A DNA stretch of 64,000 nt from an uncultured Chryseobacterium sp. (lineage in GTDB: Bacteria; Bacteroidota; Bacteroidia; Flavobacteriales; Weeksellaceae): contig CAJYXJ010000015.1 of assembly GCA_913778085.1 (NCBI GenBank), forward strand, positions 1 to 64,000, written 5' to 3'. Position 1 is the first letter of the stretch. Each line of letters opens with the position of its first letter. Below are positions 7,635-47,182 of the stretch, piece after piece. The notes beneath the pieces are model-generated. The model was not told the origin of the DNA. It made no database searches and saw nothing but the letters and a program-made list of their open reading frames with translations. Both the position numbers and the translations under genes were made by a program.

Positions 7635-9068
7635 TTACTGATTCAATGACCAAACAGAATATGAATTTGGCGGGGCTTGGATTTTCACCCATTTATCGCC
7701 CTGTGTAGTAGGATACCATGAGGAATTTCCCGTGAAGTCTTTGATCTGCTGGCTGGCCCAATTGGTCTGAATCCATCGTTCCTGCCAGCTGGAAGAGCTA
7801 TTGATATAGACAACCAGTCCAGGATTTCCGTTATAGCCGTTTCTTCGGGCAATGTATTCATCGTTATCAGTATAGAGAATCGAAGTGGTTCCGGTGGCTT
7901 TGTTATTGTGGATCCAAATGAGGTTGTTCAGCCTTTCTTTGTTCAGCCATTCCTCGTAATCCCTGTAAAAAATGGTGGGATAACCTTCATGGGTCAGGAT
8001 GTAAGCATACGCCGGCATTTTATTGTAAATGATATCCGTATCATGATTGGCGACAAAAGTAACCGCTTTAAAGGGGTTTCTTTTCCACATCATATCATCA
8101 TTCAGGACGTTGAGGTTTCCATTATCGAATGCCTCATCCATTTTGTAATAAGCGGCAAAATCAAAGACCGAACTGTTGGCATTATTGGCCCAGGACTCCA
8201 GTGTATTTACATTAGAATCCCATAATTCGCCAACCGAGAAACCACCGACATTGGAATTCCAGTTATTTACTACCCAAGCGCCGAATCCTTTCACATAATC
8301 GAATCGCCATCCGTCAAATTTCATGACGTTTTTATAATACTTTCCTACCGAATCATCCCTTCCCCAAAGCCAGTCCTGCACATATGGATTGGCATGGCAC
8401 AGATCCGGAAAACCACCAAAAGCCCCTTCATCATTATTCCCGTAAGAATTTTTATAAAAGTCGTTGTAGTTTCTGGGGAACTTTCCTGAAGCCACTCCTG
8501 AAAAGTTGGTCCAAGTATTAGAACCTACATAGGGATTATATTCCGACTGTCCGCCGCTGTTGTGGTTGATGACAATATCGGCATACACCTGCATATTTTC
8601 CGCATGGGCTTTTGTAATCAGGGCTTCCAATTCCGTCCTTGAACCGAAACGTGTTTCCACGCTGCCGTTCTGGTTGTAATTTCCGAAATCATAATAATCC
8701 GTTGGATCATAGCCCATGGAATAGGCTCCATTCTGTGCTTTTGAAGCCGGAGGAAGCCATACTGCACCAATTCCTGCATTAGACCAATCGGTGACTTTTG
8801 ATTTTACGGTATTCCACCAATTGCCGCCATCCGGGACATCCCAGTAAAAGCCCTGCATCAGAACTCCTCCGCCCGGCCCGGCAACAAATTTACCTGTAGA
8901 AGAAGAAGTGCCGGTACTGAAAGGCCGCCCGTCGTGATGGGTAACATTCACAATTTTATCGTGAACACCCAGGTCTTTCTGATCCTCAGAGATCACCTCA
9001 TCACTGGTCCGGCAGGAATTGATTATTCCCAATGCCAGTAATGAAAGTACATAATATGTTTTTTTCAT
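7635..9068 (-). CDS. Secreted GH13 alpha-amylase, archaeal (GH13_7-like) type
   Basis: A 477-residue endo-acting alpha-1,4-glucanase. All GH13 signature regions are present: DIVINH (164-169), WRFDYVKG with nucleophile Asp257, GELWD with acid/base Glu281, and FVANHD with Asp343. Long stretches (MQGFYWDVP, FDFAAYYKMDEAFDN, TIFYRDYEEWLN) resemble, from memory, the Pyrococcus/Thermococcus amylases of subfamily GH13_7 more than typical bacterial amylases. The N-terminus has a signal peptide ending in NSC19, so it is probably a lipoprotein; residues 20-60 form a Ser/Thr-rich linker. There is no SusCD pair or T9SS tail, and it appears to be a single-gene unit. Confidence 0.93.
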   Translation of the reverse strand: MKKTYYVLSLLALGIINSCRTSDEVISEDQKDLGVHDKIVNVTHHDGRPFSTGTSSSTGKFVAGPGGGVLMQGFYWDVPDGGNWWNTVKSKVTDWSNAGIGAVWLPPASKAQNGAYSMGYDPTDYYDFGNYNQNGSVETRFGSRTELEALITKAHAENMQVYADIVINHNSGGQSEYNPYVGSNTWTNFSGVASGKFPRNYNDFYKNSYGNNDEGAFGGFPDLCHANPYVQDWLWGRDDSVGKYYKNVMKFDGWRFDYVKGFGAWVVNNWNSNVGGFSVGELWDSNVNTLESWANNANSSVFDFAAYYKMDEAFDNGNLNVLNDDMMWKRNPFKAVTFVANHDTDIIYNKMPAYAYILTHEGYPTIFYRDYEEWLNKERLNNLIWIHNNKATGTTSILYTDNDEYIARRNGYNGNPGLVVYINSSSSWQERWIQTNWASQQIKDFTGNSSWYPTTQGDKWVKIQAPPNSYSVWSLNQ

Positions 9069-41302: not shown

Positions 41303-42181
41303 ATGCGTACTATACTTATAGAGCCTACTGAAAACCCGAAAGTGATGAAATTTGTGGCTGATTATAACCTGATTCCGGGATCTTTGGAGCTCGACAGAAA
41401 TTCAGATATTTCAGAAATTCCCCTGGCCCAGGAGCTTTTTAATTATCCTTTCGTTGAAAAGATATTTATTACCGCCAATTTTGTAGCCGTGGCCAAACAG
41501 GATACGGTAGAATGGGAACATGTGGCGGAAAGCCTGAAAAACGTTATTGAAGACGAATTGCTGGCCAACCCGAGAATCTATCTTCAGAAGAAAAAAGAGC
41601 TGTACCAGATTTACGCCGAAATGACGCCAAACCCGAATGTAATGAAGTTTGTCTCGAATAAATTACTGCTTGAAGGTTTTGTAGAAGTAAAATCAAGAGA
41701 AGGAGCCGAAGGCGTTCCATTGGCGCAGGCGGTCTTCAAAGAATTTGATTTTGCCAAGGAAGTTTTCATTTCGGATAATTTCGTGGCCGTAACCAGAGAT
41801 AACTCTGTAGAGTGGCATGAAGTGATGATGGCCGTTCGTGCACTGATCGCAGAATACCTGCAGAATGGTGGCGAAATTTCCAATATTGAAGCCCAGAAGC
41901 ATGAAAATCCGGTGGAGAAGATCATCAACAGGGATTATACGGACGACGAACAGAAAATTTCCGATATCTTAAATGAATATGTAGCCCCGGCAGTAGAGAA
42001 CGACGGCGGGAAAATTTCCTTAATGGAATACGACCAGGAAAGCAAAACGGCCAGGATGCTCTTGCAGGGCGCCTGCTCGGGATGTCCAAGTTCTACAGCT
42101 ACCCTTAAAAACGGAATCGAAAACATCTTAAAACAATTCGTTCCGGATCTGGTGGAAAGAGTGGAAGCCGTAAACGGATAA
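41303..42181 (+). CDS. Nfu/NifU-type Fe-S scaffold with duplicated N-terminal domain
   Basis: A 292-residue protein. Two tandem Nfu N-terminal domains share the pattern TENPKVMKFVADYNLIPG (7-24) and TPNPNVMKFVSNKLLLEG (~107-124), each followed by a FxxxVFISxNFVAV segment. The C-terminal NifU domain carries the CxxC cluster ligand GACSGCPSS. It delivers Fe-S clusters to apoproteins in the cytosol. Downstream lie the AAA/TOPRIM pair and hemH. Confidence 0.93.
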   Translation: MRTILIEPTENPKVMKFVADYNLIPGSLELDRNSDISEIPLAQELFNYPFVEKIFITANFVAVAKQDTVEWEHVAESLKNVIEDELLANPRIYLQKKKELYQIYAEMTPNPNVMKFVSNKLLLEGFVEVKSREGAEGVPLAQAVFKEFDFAKEVFISDNFVAVTRDNSVEWHEVMMAVRALIAEYLQNGGEISNIEAQKHENPVEKIINRDYTDDEQKISDILNEYVAPAVENDGGKISLMEYDQESKTARMLLQGACSGCPSSTATLKNGIENILKQFVPDLVERVEAVNG

Positions 42182-42209
42182 AATATTTTTATGATATAAA
42201 AACCTTAAA

Positions 42210-43280
42210 ATGAAAATACGAAGTATAAAACTGCAAAACTATAAAAAATTTGTAAGCGAAAAAATTATCAATTTTACAAATACAGATGGAGAAATTAATG
42301 AAAAGACATTACTAATTGGTGACAATGGAAGTGGAAAAACCTCTATCTTACAAGCAATAGTTAGTTTAATCGCTTCTGCTACAAGACTAAATTTTTATCC
42401 AAGTCGACTAGATTGGTCTGGTTATGATTATAGGTTTATACAAAACGGCAATATGCCCATAAAGATAGAGATTGAAGTTGAATTTTCTGAAAATGAAATC
42501 AAATCTACCCAAAAATATTTAAAAAATCTAAACGATAAAGGGTATAAACTGAGAGAAACTATTAGCAATAGTAATAAAGTTAAATTAAGTTTAAATTATA
42601 ATAAAGACAGACTATTTATAATAAATGGCGGATTAAATGATTTAAAAAAATTTAACGGTTATCAATATGCTAAAATGCTATCATCATATGTTAAGAATAA
42701 AACACAACTTTTTGAAAATGTTGGTAACATTTACTGGTATAATGAACAGAGAAATGCTGAAAATTTATCTTTTCTACTAGATGACAGCAAAATCAATCAA
42801 TTGGATTCTATTAGGAATTATTTATCAAGTTCGTACTCATTTCATATAAGTTTAAAAAATGGTGCTAGAAGATTATCAGAAGGAGAATTTGATTTTTATG
42901 CTAAATTATCGCAATTGTACACTCAAGTTTTTCCAGATCGCAAGTTCGTTGGGCCTGCACCAAATTTTGATGTATATGAGAAAGCAAAAACGCCCGATTT
43001 TTTTCTAAATGATGGTAAAAATAATTATGAGTTAGCAGGCATGTCGGCGGGAGAAAGGGCGATTTTTCCAATCTTAATGGATTTTGCACGTTGGAATATT
43101 AATAACTCCATTATTATAATTGATGAAATTGAATTACACCTTCATCCACCATTGCAACAACAATTAATAAGAGTTTTATCAAAGTTGGGTGATAATAATC
43201 AATTTATTTTCACTTCCCATTCAGATTCTGTTTTTAATATGTTCGAATCATCTGAAATAATAAGGTTAGAAAATGAGTAA
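42210..43280 (+). CDS. AAA/ABC-type ATPase of a PARIS-like (AriA) defence pair
   Basis: A 356-residue SMC/OLD-type ATPase. Walker A is GDNGSGKT (37-44), the ABC signature is AGMSAGER (276-283), Walker B IIIIDEIELHLHP (301-313), and the H-loop TSHSD has His337. The middle (60-270) is a helical insert. A following gene encodes a separate DUF4435/TOPRIM protein; this split ATPase + TOPRIM layout is that of PARIS (AriA-AriB), in which the ATPase senses phage proteins. Both genes are very AT-rich: sample lines I counted have 20-27% GC against 50% in hemH. It starts 28 nt after nfu and overlaps the next gene by 8 nt. PARIS assignment is inference; a shorter AriA than the typical ~450 residues is a difference. 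Confidence 0.75.
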   Translation: MKIRSIKLQNYKKFVSEKIINFTNTDGEINEKTLLIGDNGSGKTSILQAIVSLIASATRLNFYPSRLDWSGYDYRFIQNGNMPIKIEIEVEFSENEIKSTQKYLKNLNDKGYKLRETISNSNKVKLSLNYNKDRLFIINGGLNDLKKFNGYQYAKMLSSYVKNKTQLFENVGNIYWYNEQRNAENLSFLLDDSKINQLDSIRNYLSSSYSFHISLKNGARRLSEGEFDFYAKLSQLYTQVFPDRKFVGPAPNFDVYEKAKTPDFFLNDGKNNYELAGMSAGERAIFPILMDFARWNINNSIIIIDEIELHLHPPLQQQLIRVLSKLGDNNQFIFTSHSDSVFNMFESSEIIRLENE

Positions 43281-44139
43281 AACAATAAAAATATATTGCG
43301 AAGGCACTAACTCTAGTTTTGACTGTAAAATTTTAAATTTAATTATATCAGATATAATAGGAAAAATCTTACTTCAACCAATCGGTAGTAAAAAAGGGGC
43401 AGGACCTATAATTAATTATGATTTTCCTATACCAAGTATAGTAAAACCAGACTTTTTCTTTTTCTTTAGAGATAGAGATTTTGATTTAGCCGTACCTAAT
43501 AATGAAGAACTGACTATTCAAGATAATAAAGATTCATTTCAAAATGTAATTGGGCAGCGTTGTCTTTCTTATAGATGTACAATTGAAAATTATCTTTTTG
43601 ATGAAAAAATTTTATTTGAGTTTCTAAAGAAGAAAAATCTTCTACTAGAAAATAGTATTGGATCAGAAACAGATGTTAAAAATAAAATGATTAAGGCAGC
43701 TAAAAACATTAAATATTATCAAGCAATTCGTCATACCTTAGGAGTGCTAAGAACAAATTTAGATTTAGGAACTTCATTTTTAAACAAAAATAAAAGTAGC
43801 GGTGACTTACCAAATGATTTAACATTAGAATATTGTAAAAACAAAGCATTAGAAAAGATTAAAAACATCAAAGATGAAACTAAAAAATGGGATAATTTTG
43901 AAATAGAACTACAAAAATTCTTAATGATTTTTAATGAGACTATATTTTACAATAATCTGGAATTTCTAACATGGTTTCAAGGTAAAGACTTTGCTACAGC
44001 TTTACAAAGAGAATTACAAAATTTTTCAAAAAGAGATTTAAATGAGTTTTACCAATTTTCTCTAGATCAATTTAACTATTCGAAATTTGCAGATTTAGTT
44101 CAGCTTAAAAATCTAATACAAGAGAAAATAAATGAATAG
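43273..44139 (+). CDS. DUF4435/TOPRIM-like effector of the PARIS-like pair
   Basis: A 288-residue protein with TOPRIM landmarks: IYCEG (Glu10), FFFFFRDRDFD (Asp67, Asp69 and Asp71) and RCTIENYLF (101-109), the IENYL motif typical of DUF4435. In PARIS the DUF4435 partner AriB is a nuclease released on phage sensing that cuts tRNA; here the same role is inferred. The C-terminal half is helical and unrecognised. It overlaps the ATPase by 8 nt (ATGAGTAA) and hemH by 8 nt (ATGAATAG), so the three genes are translationally linked. Strongly AT-rich, suggesting acquisition by transfer. Confidence 0.75.
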   Translation: MSKTIKIYCEGTNSSFDCKILNLIISDIIGKILLQPIGSKKGAGPIINYDFPIPSIVKPDFFFFFRDRDFDLAVPNNEELTIQDNKDSFQNVIGQRCLSYRCTIENYLFDEKILFEFLKKKNLLLENSIGSETDVKNKMIKAAKNIKYYQAIRHTLGVLRTNLDLGTSFLNKNKSSGDLPNDLTLEYCKNKALEKIKNIKDETKKWDNFEIELQKFLMIFNETIFYNNLEFLTWFQGKDFATALQRELQNFSKRDLNEFYQFSLDQFNYSKFADLVQLKNLIQEKINE

Positions 44140-45157
44140 AGGAATTTTATTAGTCAACCTGGGATCACCACGGTCAACGGCAGTAGAGGATGTAAAAGAA
44201 TATCTGGATGAGTTCCTCATGGATGAGCGGGTTATCGATTACCGCTGGTTCTTCCGTGCCCTGCTGGTACAGGGAATTATTTTAAAAACAAGGCCTAAGA
44301 AATCAGCCGAAGCCTATAAAACCGTATGGACGGATGAAGGTTCGCCTTTGATTGTGATCACCGAAAAAATCCGGCAAAAACTTCAAAAGGTGGTAGACGT
44401 TCCGGTGGAGATCGGAATGAGGTATGCCCAGCCCAGTATTGAAGCGGGAATTCAGAAGCTGGTGGATCAGGGTGTTTCGGAAATCGTTCTTTTTCCGTTG
44501 TATCCGCAGTATGCCATGAGTACAACAGAGACCGTTATTGAAAAAGCGGAGGAAGTAAGGAAAGAAAAGTTCCAAAAAGTAAAGATCAATTACATCCAGC
44601 CTTTCTACGACCGGGATATTTACATCAATTGTCTTGCGGAAAGCATAAAGGAAAAGCTTCCTGAAAACTTTGACGCTCTGCAGTTTTCTTATCACGGAGT
44701 TCCGGAAAGGCATATCTATAAAACCGATCCCACAAAAACCTGTAATCTGAACGACTGCTGTTCAAGAGAGAGCAATCCGAGCCATAAATTCTGTTACCGT
44801 CACCAATGTTTTACCACAACCAATAAGGTAATTGAAAAACTTGATATTCCGAAAGAGAAAACCATCGTATCTTTTCAGTCAAGGTTAGGTAAAGATAAAT
44901 GGATCGAACCTTATACCGATGAGACTTTGGAAACCATACCCGGAAAAGGAGTAAAAAACCTGGCTATTGTCTGTCCGGCTTTCGTATCGGACTGCCTGGA
45001 AACACTGGAAGAGATTTCCGTGGAAGGAAAACATCAGTTTACCCATGCCGGCGGAGAAAGCTTTCATTATATTCCGTGCCTGAACGATGAAGACCGCTGG
45101 ATCGAAGTGGTCAAAATCCTGTGTGAAGAAAAACTTCATGAATTTTATTTGGTATAA
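44132..45157 (+). CDS. hemH: Ferrochelatase with internal cysteine cluster
   Basis: A 341-residue enzyme that inserts Fe2+ into protoporphyrin IX. LLVNLGSPRS opens the protein; the catalytic His188 is in QFSYHGVPERH and the acidic pair follows in PAFVSDCLETLEEI. An insert carries five cysteines, C204, C209, C210, C221 and C226 (KTCNLNDCC ... FCYRHQC), resembling ferrochelatases with an internal [2Fe-2S] cluster. The start codon overlaps the end of the TOPRIM gene by 8 nt. Membrane-associated in the cytosol. Confidence 0.95.
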   Translation: MNRGILLVNLGSPRSTAVEDVKEYLDEFLMDERVIDYRWFFRALLVQGIILKTRPKKSAEAYKTVWTDEGSPLIVITEKIRQKLQKVVDVPVEIGMRYAQPSIEAGIQKLVDQGVSEIVLFPLYPQYAMSTTETVIEKAEEVRKEKFQKVKINYIQPFYDRDIYINCLAESIKEKLPENFDALQFSYHGVPERHIYKTDPTKTCNLNDCCSRESNPSHKFCYRHQCFTTTNKVIEKLDIPKEKTIVSFQSRLGKDKWIEPYTDETLETIPGKGVKNLAIVCPAFVSDCLETLEEISVEGKHQFTHAGGESFHYIPCLNDEDRWIEVVKILCEEKLHEFYLV

Positions 45158-45170
45158 AATTTTTGAATCC

Positions 45171-45221
45171 CCATAAATAATAAGACCACAGGAAATTTTC
45201 CTGTGGTCTTATTATTTATGG
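45171..45221. terminator. Very long bidirectional terminator
   Basis: A near-perfect ~25-bp inverted repeat, core AAGACCACAGG/CCTGTGGTCTT, between convergent hemH and the M4 peptidase gene. Confidence 0.9.
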
Positions 45222-45229
45222 TTTAGATA

Positions 45230-47182
45230 TTACTTTTTAATTAAATTTCCTGCTTTCTGTCCGTTTACGGTCACGATGTAAATTCCGGGAAGTATATTGC
45301 CCGGAAGACTGATCTCCAGCCTGTTTATACCATCTGTTGTTTTAACCTTTTCTGAAATTTCTCTTTTCCCGGTCAGGCTCATCAGCTCCACTACGCCATT
45401 TCCTTTCTTGCCTTCGAATGAAACAGTAAACTGATCTGTAGCCGGATTCGGGCTTATGGTATAAAGCAATGCATCCGGAGCTGCCATTTTTCCGGCAGAT
45501 GAGGTTCCACCTCCCACGCCTACGGCGTTCCATGCATTTGCGACTTGGGTAACTTCAGCACCTCCTGCGCCATACAGATCAGCTGCTGCCTGAAGAGAGT
45601 AGGTTCTGGCATTCATATACGTAGAAGAAGAAGTAAGATAGGTGGTCAGCGTTCGATATGCTATAGCTGCCGCTTTATCCAGCCCGATTCCCGTAACATT
45701 GTAGGCAAAACCTTTATCATTGGTTCCGCTTCCTCCGGTTACCAACAGATAATACCAGAAATTAAGTACCCCGGAATTGGTATGAACTCCACAATAATCA
45801 TTCGACTGGGTAGGACTTGAACATCCTGATGTTGTCGTTGCCTTCCAATAGGTTCCAAGGTAAGTATCCGGCTGTCCGTATGCATTCGGGTTTGCCATAT
45901 CCCGGATCACATAGCTGAAATCTTCCCCCAGTTTCCAGCTTGCCTGGTTAGGCCGTGCCCAGCGTTCTATGGAGTTTCCGAAAATATCCGAAAATCCTTC
46001 ATTAAGTGCGCCAGATTCTCTCTGATAAGCCAGATTGGCTGTTTTGGAGGTCATGCCGTGGGCAATTTCGTGGCCGCAAACATCCAAGGCTGTTAACGGT
46101 TTTCCACCGTTCGTAGAAGAGCTTCCGTCGCCATACGTCATCCGGGCCCCGTCCCAAAATGCATTAAAATAATTGGTAGAATAATGCACATAGGATTTTA
46201 TACTGAAATTATTATTGTCGATGCTCTTCCTTCCGAATTTGGTATACAGATAGTCCACAGTCATTTCCGCTCCCCAATGTGCATCGGTTGCATACTGGTC
46301 TTTATTGCTGTTGACGTTATTCCAATTATTATCTGCATCTGTAAAGTCTACGGCAGAAGAATAGTTTGTTCCTTTCTTTAAGTTGTAGGTTTCTATCGCA
46401 GTTCCGGCATTTCTTCCGGTTTCGCGCAGCCTGTAGCTTCCGTTGTAAGAATCCGCCGTGATGCTTCGGGTTCCGCTGTAAGCAGTAACGGCCGTTCCCG
46501 GAGTATTAACTTCATGGATGATGGCATCAACGCCCAATATTTTACCGTCTTTTGCATCTACAAAAACATATTGCCTGCTTAACGGTTTTTCAGCATAAAT
46601 GTCAAACTTATAAGCAAGCCTGAGATCATTCATTTTTTCATCGGCTGGATCTGAATAATAAACGACTTCCCCTTTGGGAGCAAAGCTTGCATTTTTATCA
46701 TCCGATTCTCTTTTGATGAAATCTTCTTCTTCCCTGTTCTGCCATTTGTAGGATTCGGCGCTTACAAAGACCAAAGCGCTCTGCAAAGCGATATGTTCGG
46801 AAATTTTCGGACTTTTCTCCAGGTTTTTTGGAGTTTTAACGATCCATTTCCCTGATTCTCCTACAATTTTACCGTCTTTGGTCTGCACAGCCATCATTCC
46901 GTATTCTACAGGAATATCATTAACAGTCTGTTGGAACCGGTAGGTTTCGTATCCCAGCTGGTCTTTTTCAAGTCCCAGATTCCGGCCCTGTGCTGAAGAA
47001 AGCCTTTGAGAAGTTTCATCATACAACACGGGACTTCCCTGGAAAACAGGCCGGTCTTTTTCAAACCTCATAAATTCCGCATGAAGGCCGTCCTTGGAAG
47101 AAACCAGTTTTGACGGGAGATTCTGTGCAAAAACGAATGAGGATACAGCAATGCTTGAGGCTAAAATAAATTTAATTCGCAT
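45230..47182 (-). CDS. M4 (thermolysin-type) metallopeptidase with T9SS tail
   Basis: A 650-residue secreted protease. Order: signal peptide (1-19), FTP-type propeptide (~60-225), catalytic domain with HEIAH (371-375) and third zinc ligand Glu395 in GALNEGFSDIFG, and a C-terminal type A T9SS sorting domain (ISPNPATDQFTV ... LPGIYIVTVNGQ) of ~75 residues. It is exported by Sec and then the type IX system. Probably an extracellular nutritional protease. Monocistronic. Confidence 0.95.
   Translation of the reverse strand: MRIKFILASSIAVSSFVFAQNLPSKLVSSKDGLHAEFMRFEKDRPVFQGSPVLYDETSQRLSSAQGRNLGLEKDQLGYETYRFQQTVNDIPVEYGMMAVQTKDGKIVGESGKWIVKTPKNLEKSPKISEHIALQSALVFVSAESYKWQNREEEDFIKRESDDKNASFAPKGEVVYYSDPADEKMNDLRLAYKFDIYAEKPLSRQYVFVDAKDGKILGVDAIIHEVNTPGTAVTAYSGTRSITADSYNGSYRLRETGRNAGTAIETYNLKKGTNYSSAVDFTDADNNWNNVNSNKDQYATDAHWGAEMTVDYLYTKFGRKSIDNNNFSIKSYVHYSTNYFNAFWDGARMTYGDGSSSTNGGKPLTALDVCGHEIAHGMTSKTANLAYQRESGALNEGFSDIFGNSIERWARPNQASWKLGEDFSYVIRDMANPNAYGQPDTYLGTYWKATTTSGCSSPTQSNDYCGVHTNSGVLNFWYYLLVTGGSGTNDKGFAYNVTGIGLDKAAAIAYRTLTTYLTSSSTYMNARTYSLQAAADLYGAGGAEVTQVANAWNAVGVGGGTSSAGKMAAPDALLYTISPNPATDQFTVSFEGKKGNGVVELMSLTGKREISEKVKTTDGINRLEISLPGNILPGIYIVTVNGQKAGNLIKK

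Follow-up and report, generated by a model that had tools for sequence, protein, structure and literature searches.

A PARIS-like ATPase/TOPRIM gene pair nested between nfu and hemH in an uncultured Chryseobacterium

The nfu-hemH locus and its counterparts in the genus

We analyzed a stretch of 64,000 nucleotides (nt) from an uncultured Chryseobacterium species (hereafter the window; assembly GCA_913778085.1, contig CAJYXJ010000015.1, positions 1 to 64,000). Open reading frame (ORF) calls in the window place an ATPase gene and a TOPRIM-type gene between nfu and hemH, with all four genes on the plus strand (Table 1). A preliminary description of this DNA had reported these ORFs, 8-nt overlaps at both ends of the TOPRIM gene, and a pair more AT-rich than its flanks, and each of these features was confirmed: the pair has a GC content of 26.9%, compared to 41.7% in the 3 kb on either side. 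No integrase or transposase gene lies between nfu and hemH.

To place this arrangement in context, we compared the interval across the genus. hemH was present in all 99 genus genomes searched (source genome included), and the source genome gave a single match, the sole copy found there. The surroundings of hemH were then read from the 98 other genomes (109 loci, with second hemH copies fetched in part). nfu lies directly upstream of hemH, in the same direction, in 90 of the 98; the fetched stretches of the other eight contain no nfu-adjacent hemH copy. The longest of the 90 gaps measures 571 nt, and therefore none of them holds the pair. This adjacency without the insert is what the preliminary description had expected of a foreign-looking pair captured within the operon, and the contrary outcome it had considered, a pair carried by all relatives, was not found.

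The 90 gaps vary in size: 36 are 110 nt or shorter, 4 measure 111 to 330 nt, 13 measure 450 to 475 nt, and 37 measure 500 to 575 nt. An open frame of at least 146 amino acids (aa), of one type, occupies 35 of the 37 intervals in the largest class, and the one such gene that was scanned is an FMN reductase (PF03358, E value of 2.3e-26). The 13 intervals of 450 to 475 nt hold an ORF of ∼147 aa which, in the examples read, meets hemH or overlaps it by a few bases; the one scanned had no Pfam match at an E value of ≤0.001. Given these differing contents, the nfu-hemH gap is a variable slot: it may hold the ∼147-aa ORF, a gene of the FMN-reductase type, or nothing but a spacer, which often contains a hairpin. 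The eight nearest relatives, whose hemH genes are 93 to 99% identical to that of the window, have spacers of 66 to 78 nt, with a hairpin at z below −2 in seven of the eight. Given its absence from all 90 gaps, the insertion looks recent.

The preliminary description had seen no terminator or promoter belonging to the pair, and no convincing one was found here. No terminator-like site was found in positions 41900 to 44139, and the 16 promoter-like sites in positions 41900 to 45300 represent no excess over shuffled sequence (mean, 12.9; standard deviation, 4.1). The Bacteroidetes-type promoter motif, TTTG-N17-24-TAnnTTTG, has no site on the plus strand of the nfu-hemH interval. The hemH start codon sits within the overlap with the TOPRIM gene, with no earlier ATG, GTG, or TTG in that open frame, and the start reads ATGAATAGAGG in the window, compared to ATGAAAGG in the eight nearest relatives. 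Together, the overlaps and the lack of signals suggest that the pair would be transcribed from the nfu promoter and that translation would re-initiate at hemH; the overlaps by themselves are consistent with coupled translation. The preliminary description had left the hemH overlap unexplained. The overlap is real, and on a plain reading it would have arisen as the insertion extended into the first codons of hemH, as in carB at a locus described below (L089).

Table 1. Features of the nfu-hemH locus (positions refer to the window)
Feature	Position	Strand	Evidence or remark
nfu (Nfu_N + NifU), upstream operon gene	41303..42181	+	Pfam Nfu_N 1.7e-47, NifU 3.7e-21
28-nt AT-rich leader, nfu stop to ATPase start	42182..42209	+	No hairpin, in contrast to spacers of nearest relatives
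OLD-type ABC ATPase, 356 aa (putative AriA-like sensor)	42210..43280	+	AAA_15 95.8 bits, AAA_21 82.0 bits; clade of 34 at 100/100
Walker A, GDNGSGKT	42318..42341	+	G37, N39, G42, K43 invariant in 34/34 (alignment A4)
ABC signature, MSAGE	43041..43055	+	M278, S279, E282 invariant in 34/34 (alignment A4)
Walker B, IIIIDE	43110..43127	+	D305, E306 invariant in 34/34 (alignment A4)
8-nt overlap ATGAGTAA of ATPase and TOPRIM genes	43273..43280	+	ORF coordinates
TOPRIM/DUF4435-type putative nuclease, 288 aa (putative AriB-like effector)	43273..44139	+	Family profile matches AriB 8ux9_A
E10 of CEG motif	43300..43302	+	Aligns with catalytic E26 of AriB; invariant in 27/27
D67-R-D69 (TOPRIM D-x-D)	43471..43479	+	Aligns with D-R-E of AriB; D67, D69 invariant in 27/27
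IENYL motif	43582..43596	+	E105, Y107 invariant in 27/27; aligns with ENY of AriB
8-nt overlap ATGAATAG, TOPRIM gene end and first start codon of hemH frame	44132..44139	+	ORF coordinates
hemH, ferrochelatase	44132..45157	+	Pfam 2e-102

Affinities of the ATPase and the TOPRIM protein

The ATPase matches Pfam AAA_15 (5.3e-27) and AAA_21 (1.1e-22). In PMC9122126, these two models served as PARIS detectors, and the published rule combines a score of at least 32 bits with AAA_15 or at least 27 bits with AAA_21 with an adjacent DUF4435 protein of at least 27 bits. The ATPase passes its part of the rule (Table 1), and the TOPRIM protein of the window fails the DUF4435 part. Matches to the PADLOC "AriA" models were rejected as proof of PARIS: these models, of 373 and 304 positions, behave like Pfam AAA_15 (374) and AAA_21 (304), of which they are presumably copies.

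Searched alone, the window TOPRIM protein had no match in Pfam (up to an E value of 1), NCBIfam, or PDB, and a single weak match in PADLOC (HEC-02B, 5.9e-4). Across 27 aligned TOPRIM proteins, C9-E10-G11, D67, D69, E105, Y107, and K238 are invariant, and the family profile matches AriB (8ux9_A) at an E value of 4.5e-4, pairing E26 of AriB with E10 and its D-R-E with D67-R-D69. An E26A mutant of AriB does not cut tRNA, according to PMC12409363. In a profile-profile comparison, the TOPRIM family matched six DUF4435 proteins from the same bacterial order (96.3%; E value of 1.7e-9). At an E value of ≤0.1, 9 of the 27 members match DUF4435 itself (best, 3.3e-8), 23 match the PADLOC AriAB model, and 15 match the AriB model. 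On these profile matches, we take the TOPRIM protein to be remotely homologous to AriB, with the catalytic E and D-x-D/E positions kept. The preliminary description had identified an AAA ATPase and a TOPRIM protein of the DUF4435 kind; the AAA_15/AAA_21 assignment and the IENYL motif stand, and the family profile leads to AriB, but the window protein itself has no DUF4435 match.

In a tree with long branches and an uncertain root, from which Escherichia coli AriA was left out, 34 family ATPases form one branch (100/100) and six PARIS-type ATPases encoded beside DUF4435 genes form another (100/100). Full-length family members measure 335 to 398 aa, compared to 436 to 459 aa for the six, and the window ATPase is ∼80 to 100 aa shorter than they are. 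Its closest companions come from Desulfobacterales and Chitinophagales (99/87), followed by Capnocytophaga and Prevotellaceae, a mixed-taxon grouping that points to horizontal transfer. Within the genus, 22 of 59 other genomes gave weak and mostly partial matches to the ATPase (best E value, 4e-8).

Given that the pair fails the published rule, we describe the pair as PARIS-like and not as PARIS: judged from these comparisons, it is homologous to PARIS and closest to it in make-up, in a distinct subfamily. The PARIS architecture claimed by the preliminary description thus survives as an ATPase/TOPRIM make-up and falls as a claim of membership, on the DUF4435 score, the shorter ATPase, and the separate clade. 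That description had also held that a position outside the OLD/PARIS families would undo it. The profiles place both proteins in the OLD/PARIS superfamily, yet outside PARIS proper, which leaves this objection with partial force.

Distribution and genomic settings of the family

To delimit the family, we scanned a collection of 84,980 species with an alignment and kept the best 80 loci, so that all family counts are lower bounds; a single-sequence scan of the same collection gave no matches. The ATPase profile sets apart 40 loci, the window among them, at an E value of ≤1.3e-45; the next ATPases follow at 4e-27. Among these at least 40 loci, the ATPase gene adjoins a TOPRIM match in 34; four of these matches are partial, split, or oddly framed (L064, L070, L078, and L086). 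The other six comprise a contig end (L057) and five loci without a TOPRIM match (L054, L062, L066, L080, and L088). In the Calothrix locus L064 (8065-8726), the TOPRIM gene lies in two frames and is intact in a near twin, L071; the Calothrix unit is probably decaying. ATPase-TOPRIM overlaps of 10 nt recur among family loci, and in 27 of 30 the flanks have a higher GC content than the pair.

The family is sparse but widespread across several phyla, with hosts that include Bacteroidota, cyanobacteria, Desulfobacterales, Thiomargarita, Anaerolineae, Sorangium, and Magnetococcales. A search of 246 other genomes from the same taxonomic family gave no relative of the window TOPRIM protein at an E value of ≤0.001, and weak relatives at ≤0.01 numbered 2 of 394 others in an order sample and 4 of 394 in a phylum sample. 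Plasmid searches recovered both genes on four cyanobacterial plasmids and the ATPase alone on a fifth. A phage origin was rejected, with 0 TOPRIM matches in 50,697 phage records at an E value of 0.01. Viral contigs gave no TOPRIM match with the window proteins or with alignment A2; alignment A1 found four ATPase loci there, none of which belongs by score to the 40.

Several relatives sit inside the operons of other systems. On the three plasmids read, of the four, the pair lies within DISARM, between a methyltransferase gene (4-nt overlap) and drmA; the DISARM genes are annotated by name on two of these plasmids and were recognized by homology on the third. At L077, genes for type I methyltransferase, specificity, and PDC-S02 precede the pair, which overlaps its neighbor by 4 nt on either side. 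Housekeeping operons are also interrupted. At L087, the pair separates two permease genes (livH- and livM-like) of an operon that we take to be livKHMGF-like; the permease genes adjoin without the pair in seven of nine other genomes of the family group and in one Calothrix. One of these empty sites has a run of N in the gap, and the remaining two genomes of the nine gave no usable match. At L089, the pair cuts into carB, whose original start is lost. That start (MPKRT or similar) is intact in all 11 relatives read, from 20 other genomes searched. The TOPRIM frame at L089 shares 50 nt (8885-8934) with what is left of the carB frame and terminates within carB in a different reading frame; carB itself apparently begins at an ATG inside the gene.

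In Capnocytophaga (L056), the pair has taken the place of part of a 166-nt gap, in which one relative has a hairpin. The same gene follows the pair in one further species; the stretches fetched from five others contain neither the pair nor the gene that lies upstream of it at L056. Between the two carriers, the ratio of nonsynonymous to synonymous substitution rates (dN/dS) is 0.16 for the TOPRIM gene and 0.10 for the compared part of the ATPase gene, with 0.12 for the flanking gene. Elsewhere, the neighbors are a GHMP kinase and a sugar transferase (L079), a purL-like gene (L060), a UDP-sugar dehydrogenase (L058), and a release-factor gene (L065). At least one neighbor is on the opposite strand in 10 of 30 pairs, and one side is unknown in 2 of 30. 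The upstream neighbor is codirectional in 25 of 29 pairs, compared to a background of 155 of 243, a suggestive strand bias for the upstream neighbor alone, among loci that are related.

We found no consistent target-site duplication when the best flanking direct repeat of each of 30 pairs was compared with 40 shuffles of its own, and a general transposition signature was rejected. The repeat of the window pair is not above the shuffle maximum; L061 and L083 exceed it by one point, and clear repeats occur in L060 and L084 only. The L060 repeat is an exact 29 nt, upstream of 7001 (the ATPase gene) and downstream of 8920 (upstream of the purL-like gene). It contains TACCTTTG, a promoter-like motif upstream of the purL-like gene, so the L060 ATPase may use a copy of that gene's promoter. 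In L084, repeats of 55 nt with three mismatches lie upstream of 7001 and downstream of 8946. Some empty sites contain hairpins, namely those of 7 of the 8 nearest nfu-hemH relatives, one Capnocytophaga, and one livH-livM relative. Insertion at hairpins as a mechanism was nonetheless rejected: four of six folded nuoE-nuoF spacers fall short of z −2, and in other gaps of the window hairpins at z below −4 occur in three of eight non-codirectional and none of five codirectional gaps, which also counts against it.

The source genome (G000) carries two further ATPase-headed pairs in its nuo operon. One, an AAA_15 gene with a DUF3226 partner, lies between nuoE and nuoF and ends 1 nt before nuoF (G000:C29:20500-33500; L297:4921-6599); the FVEG and DTDF motifs of the partner are presumably TOPRIM-like. 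The other, before nuoG, joins an AAA_15 gene (33.0 bits; cutoff, 32.1) to a 180-aa gene without a Pfam match and lies between an ORF overlapping the nuoF end and nuoG (L297:8860-10406). From the nuoF loci of 98 genomes, we compared the 30 best matches: the nuoE-nuoF gap is 15 to 113 nt in 27 and holds the first pair in three; the gap before nuoG is 39 to 48 nt in 29, and the second pair occurs in G000 alone. Relative to the empty site, the left junction of the second insertion is clean and the right is slightly altered. The first nuo ATPase was found in 3 of 99 genus genomes at an E value of ≤1e-20 (the source and two others). The G014 pair is 48% identical to that of G000 in the ATPase and 91% in the partner, and the G045 pair 95% and 63%, respectively; these mosaic identities suggest an exchange of parts at the nuoE-nuoF slot. 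The nuo pairs fall outside the window family, with a score of 28.1 bits against its profile that covers the first ATPase only.

Interpretation and comparison with known systems

We consider the pair to be most probably (about 0.72) an abortive-infection, PARIS-like conflict unit that was acquired horizontally and rides on the nfu-hemH operon. We favor this explanation because none of the 90 other genus genomes with nfu next to hemH has the pair there, because key residues are invariant and the profiles match AriB and DUF4435, because relatives occur in DISARM and type I restriction-modification (RM) operons and nest where related genomes have empty sites, because dN/dS is low between two Capnocytophaga loci, and because the same genome holds the two nuo pairs. 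By analogy with PARIS, in this two-gene unit of the OLD-ATPase/TOPRIM kind the ATPase would be the likely sensor and would keep its TOPRIM partner in an inactive state until a phage trigger set it free. The freed TOPRIM protein would cut RNA or DNA (tRNA in the case of AriB), and the infected cell would stop growing. A bare cassette of ∼1.9 kb would have arrived by horizontal transfer, replaced the nfu-hemH spacer, and reached the first codons of hemH; the pair would now be read from the nfu transcript, with hemH translated from the ATG inside the end of the TOPRIM gene.

Several observations weigh against this interpretation. The window TOPRIM protein lacks a DUF4435 match, and the best PDB matches of the family ATPase profile are of the retron I-A PtuA type (2.4e-29, versus 7e-10 for AriA). 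Only 6 of the 30 family pairs have codirectional neighbors at distances of up to 100 nt on both sides, and the downstream neighbor is codirectional in 21 of 29, close to the background of 155 of 243. A single genome among those searched carries the nfu-hemH insertion, which would also fit a recent neutral passage, and the TOPRIM gene is absent or split in L054, L062, L064, L066, L080, and L088, so the unit can decay.

The PtuA matches, which extend to all 34 ATPase members (as do matches to AriA models), could mean that the pair works in the manner of Septu or retron I-A, as a PtuA-type ATPase with a TOPRIM protein in place of the HNH protein and a trigger unlike that of PARIS. We think this unlikely, given that the partner is of the TOPRIM/DUF4435 type and not an HNH protein (PtuB), that the ATPase is ∼100 to 200 aa shorter than the PtuA chains matched in PDB, and that its direct neighbors are nfu and hemH, so that no reverse transcriptase gene is adjacent. 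The single carrier and the absent or split TOPRIM genes would also suit a nondefensive selfish or decaying insertion without current function. Such an insertion would hardly be expected to keep both frames open with all invariant residues present, to show dN/dS well below 1 in Capnocytophaga, or to recur inside DISARM and RM operons, and we regard it as quite improbable.

The position of the pair between two iron/heme genes and its overlap with hemH had led the preliminary description to propose a link to heme supply or Fe-S status, in which the pair would be recruited to heme or Fe-S control and defense expression tied to hemH or nfu function. This proposal fares poorly: none of the 90 nfu-hemH relatives in the genus shares the pair, other genes fill the same slot and some of them overlap hemH too, relatives of the pair adjoin unrelated genes, and the nuo operon of this genome holds further pairs. 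We give it little credence. Least of all do we suspect an assembly or binning artifact that joined a foreign fragment to nfu-hemH. The insertion comes from a single draft assembly in 82 contigs, but both junctions lie inside one contig of 117,689 bases, hemH keeps its start and nearly its full length, and analogous insertions occur in unrelated genomes.

Searches for defense genes usually target islands, prophages, and plasmids. The present PARIS-like pair lies in a core iron/heme operon with no mobile-element gene beside it, and some of its relatives nest likewise in unrelated phyla. We speculate, with considerable doubt, that tight gaps in housekeeping operons could form a distinct defense hotspot, in which integrase-free bare pairs ride the host transcript and take over the downstream start (hemH and carB). 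Loss of the pair would then cost an essential start codon, which would stabilize the pair, and parts could be exchanged through the conserved flanks (compare nuoE-nuoF). If this were general, island-based searches would miss a class of defense loci, and annotators of essential operons would have to reckon with nested conflict genes that determine the start codon of the gene downstream. The locus offers a test of whether the start codon of an essential gene can hold a costly defense gene in place.

Of the known systems, PARIS (AriA/AriB, a "class 4" OLD system) comes closest: it has separate genes for an OLD-type ATPase and then a TOPRIM protein in the same order, AriB can be aligned with the TOPRIM protein of the pair at the E and D-x-D/E positions and at the ENY motif, and six ATPase-adjacent DUF4435 proteins share profile-profile homology with the TOPRIM family. 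The family differs from PARIS in its shorter ATPase and separate clade, and the window TOPRIM protein in its place below the DUF4435 score. OLD class 4 is described in PMC10568477 as an ATPase and a TOPRIM protein encoded separately, and the pair, with an OLD-type ABC ATPase and a TOPRIM protein on two adjacent genes, fits that description. OLD, Gabija GajA, and the retron-Eco8 OLD nuclease also combine the two domains, with weaker ATPase matches, but carry both in one protein (same source) instead of in two genes. PtuA of Septu and retron I-A shares the ATPase domain, with the best PDB profile matches, and differs in that the pair has a TOPRIM-type and not an HNH partner and no adjoining reverse transcriptase gene.

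Embedded defenses were reportedly described by Payne in 2024. OLD-ABC/TOPRIM back-up effectors nested in BREX loci are described in PMC12839542, and the DISARM and RM cases resemble both in that the pair is nested in the operon of another system. The hosts of the BREX-nested effectors are defense systems, whereas nfu-hemH, the livHM-like operon, carB, and nuo are housekeeping genes. Among the top matches of full-text searches in open-licence PMC papers, none described a PARIS-like pair nested in a housekeeping operon. The nesting of OLD/TOPRIM pairs is already in print for BREX, and the surprising part is the recurrent use of tight operon gaps.

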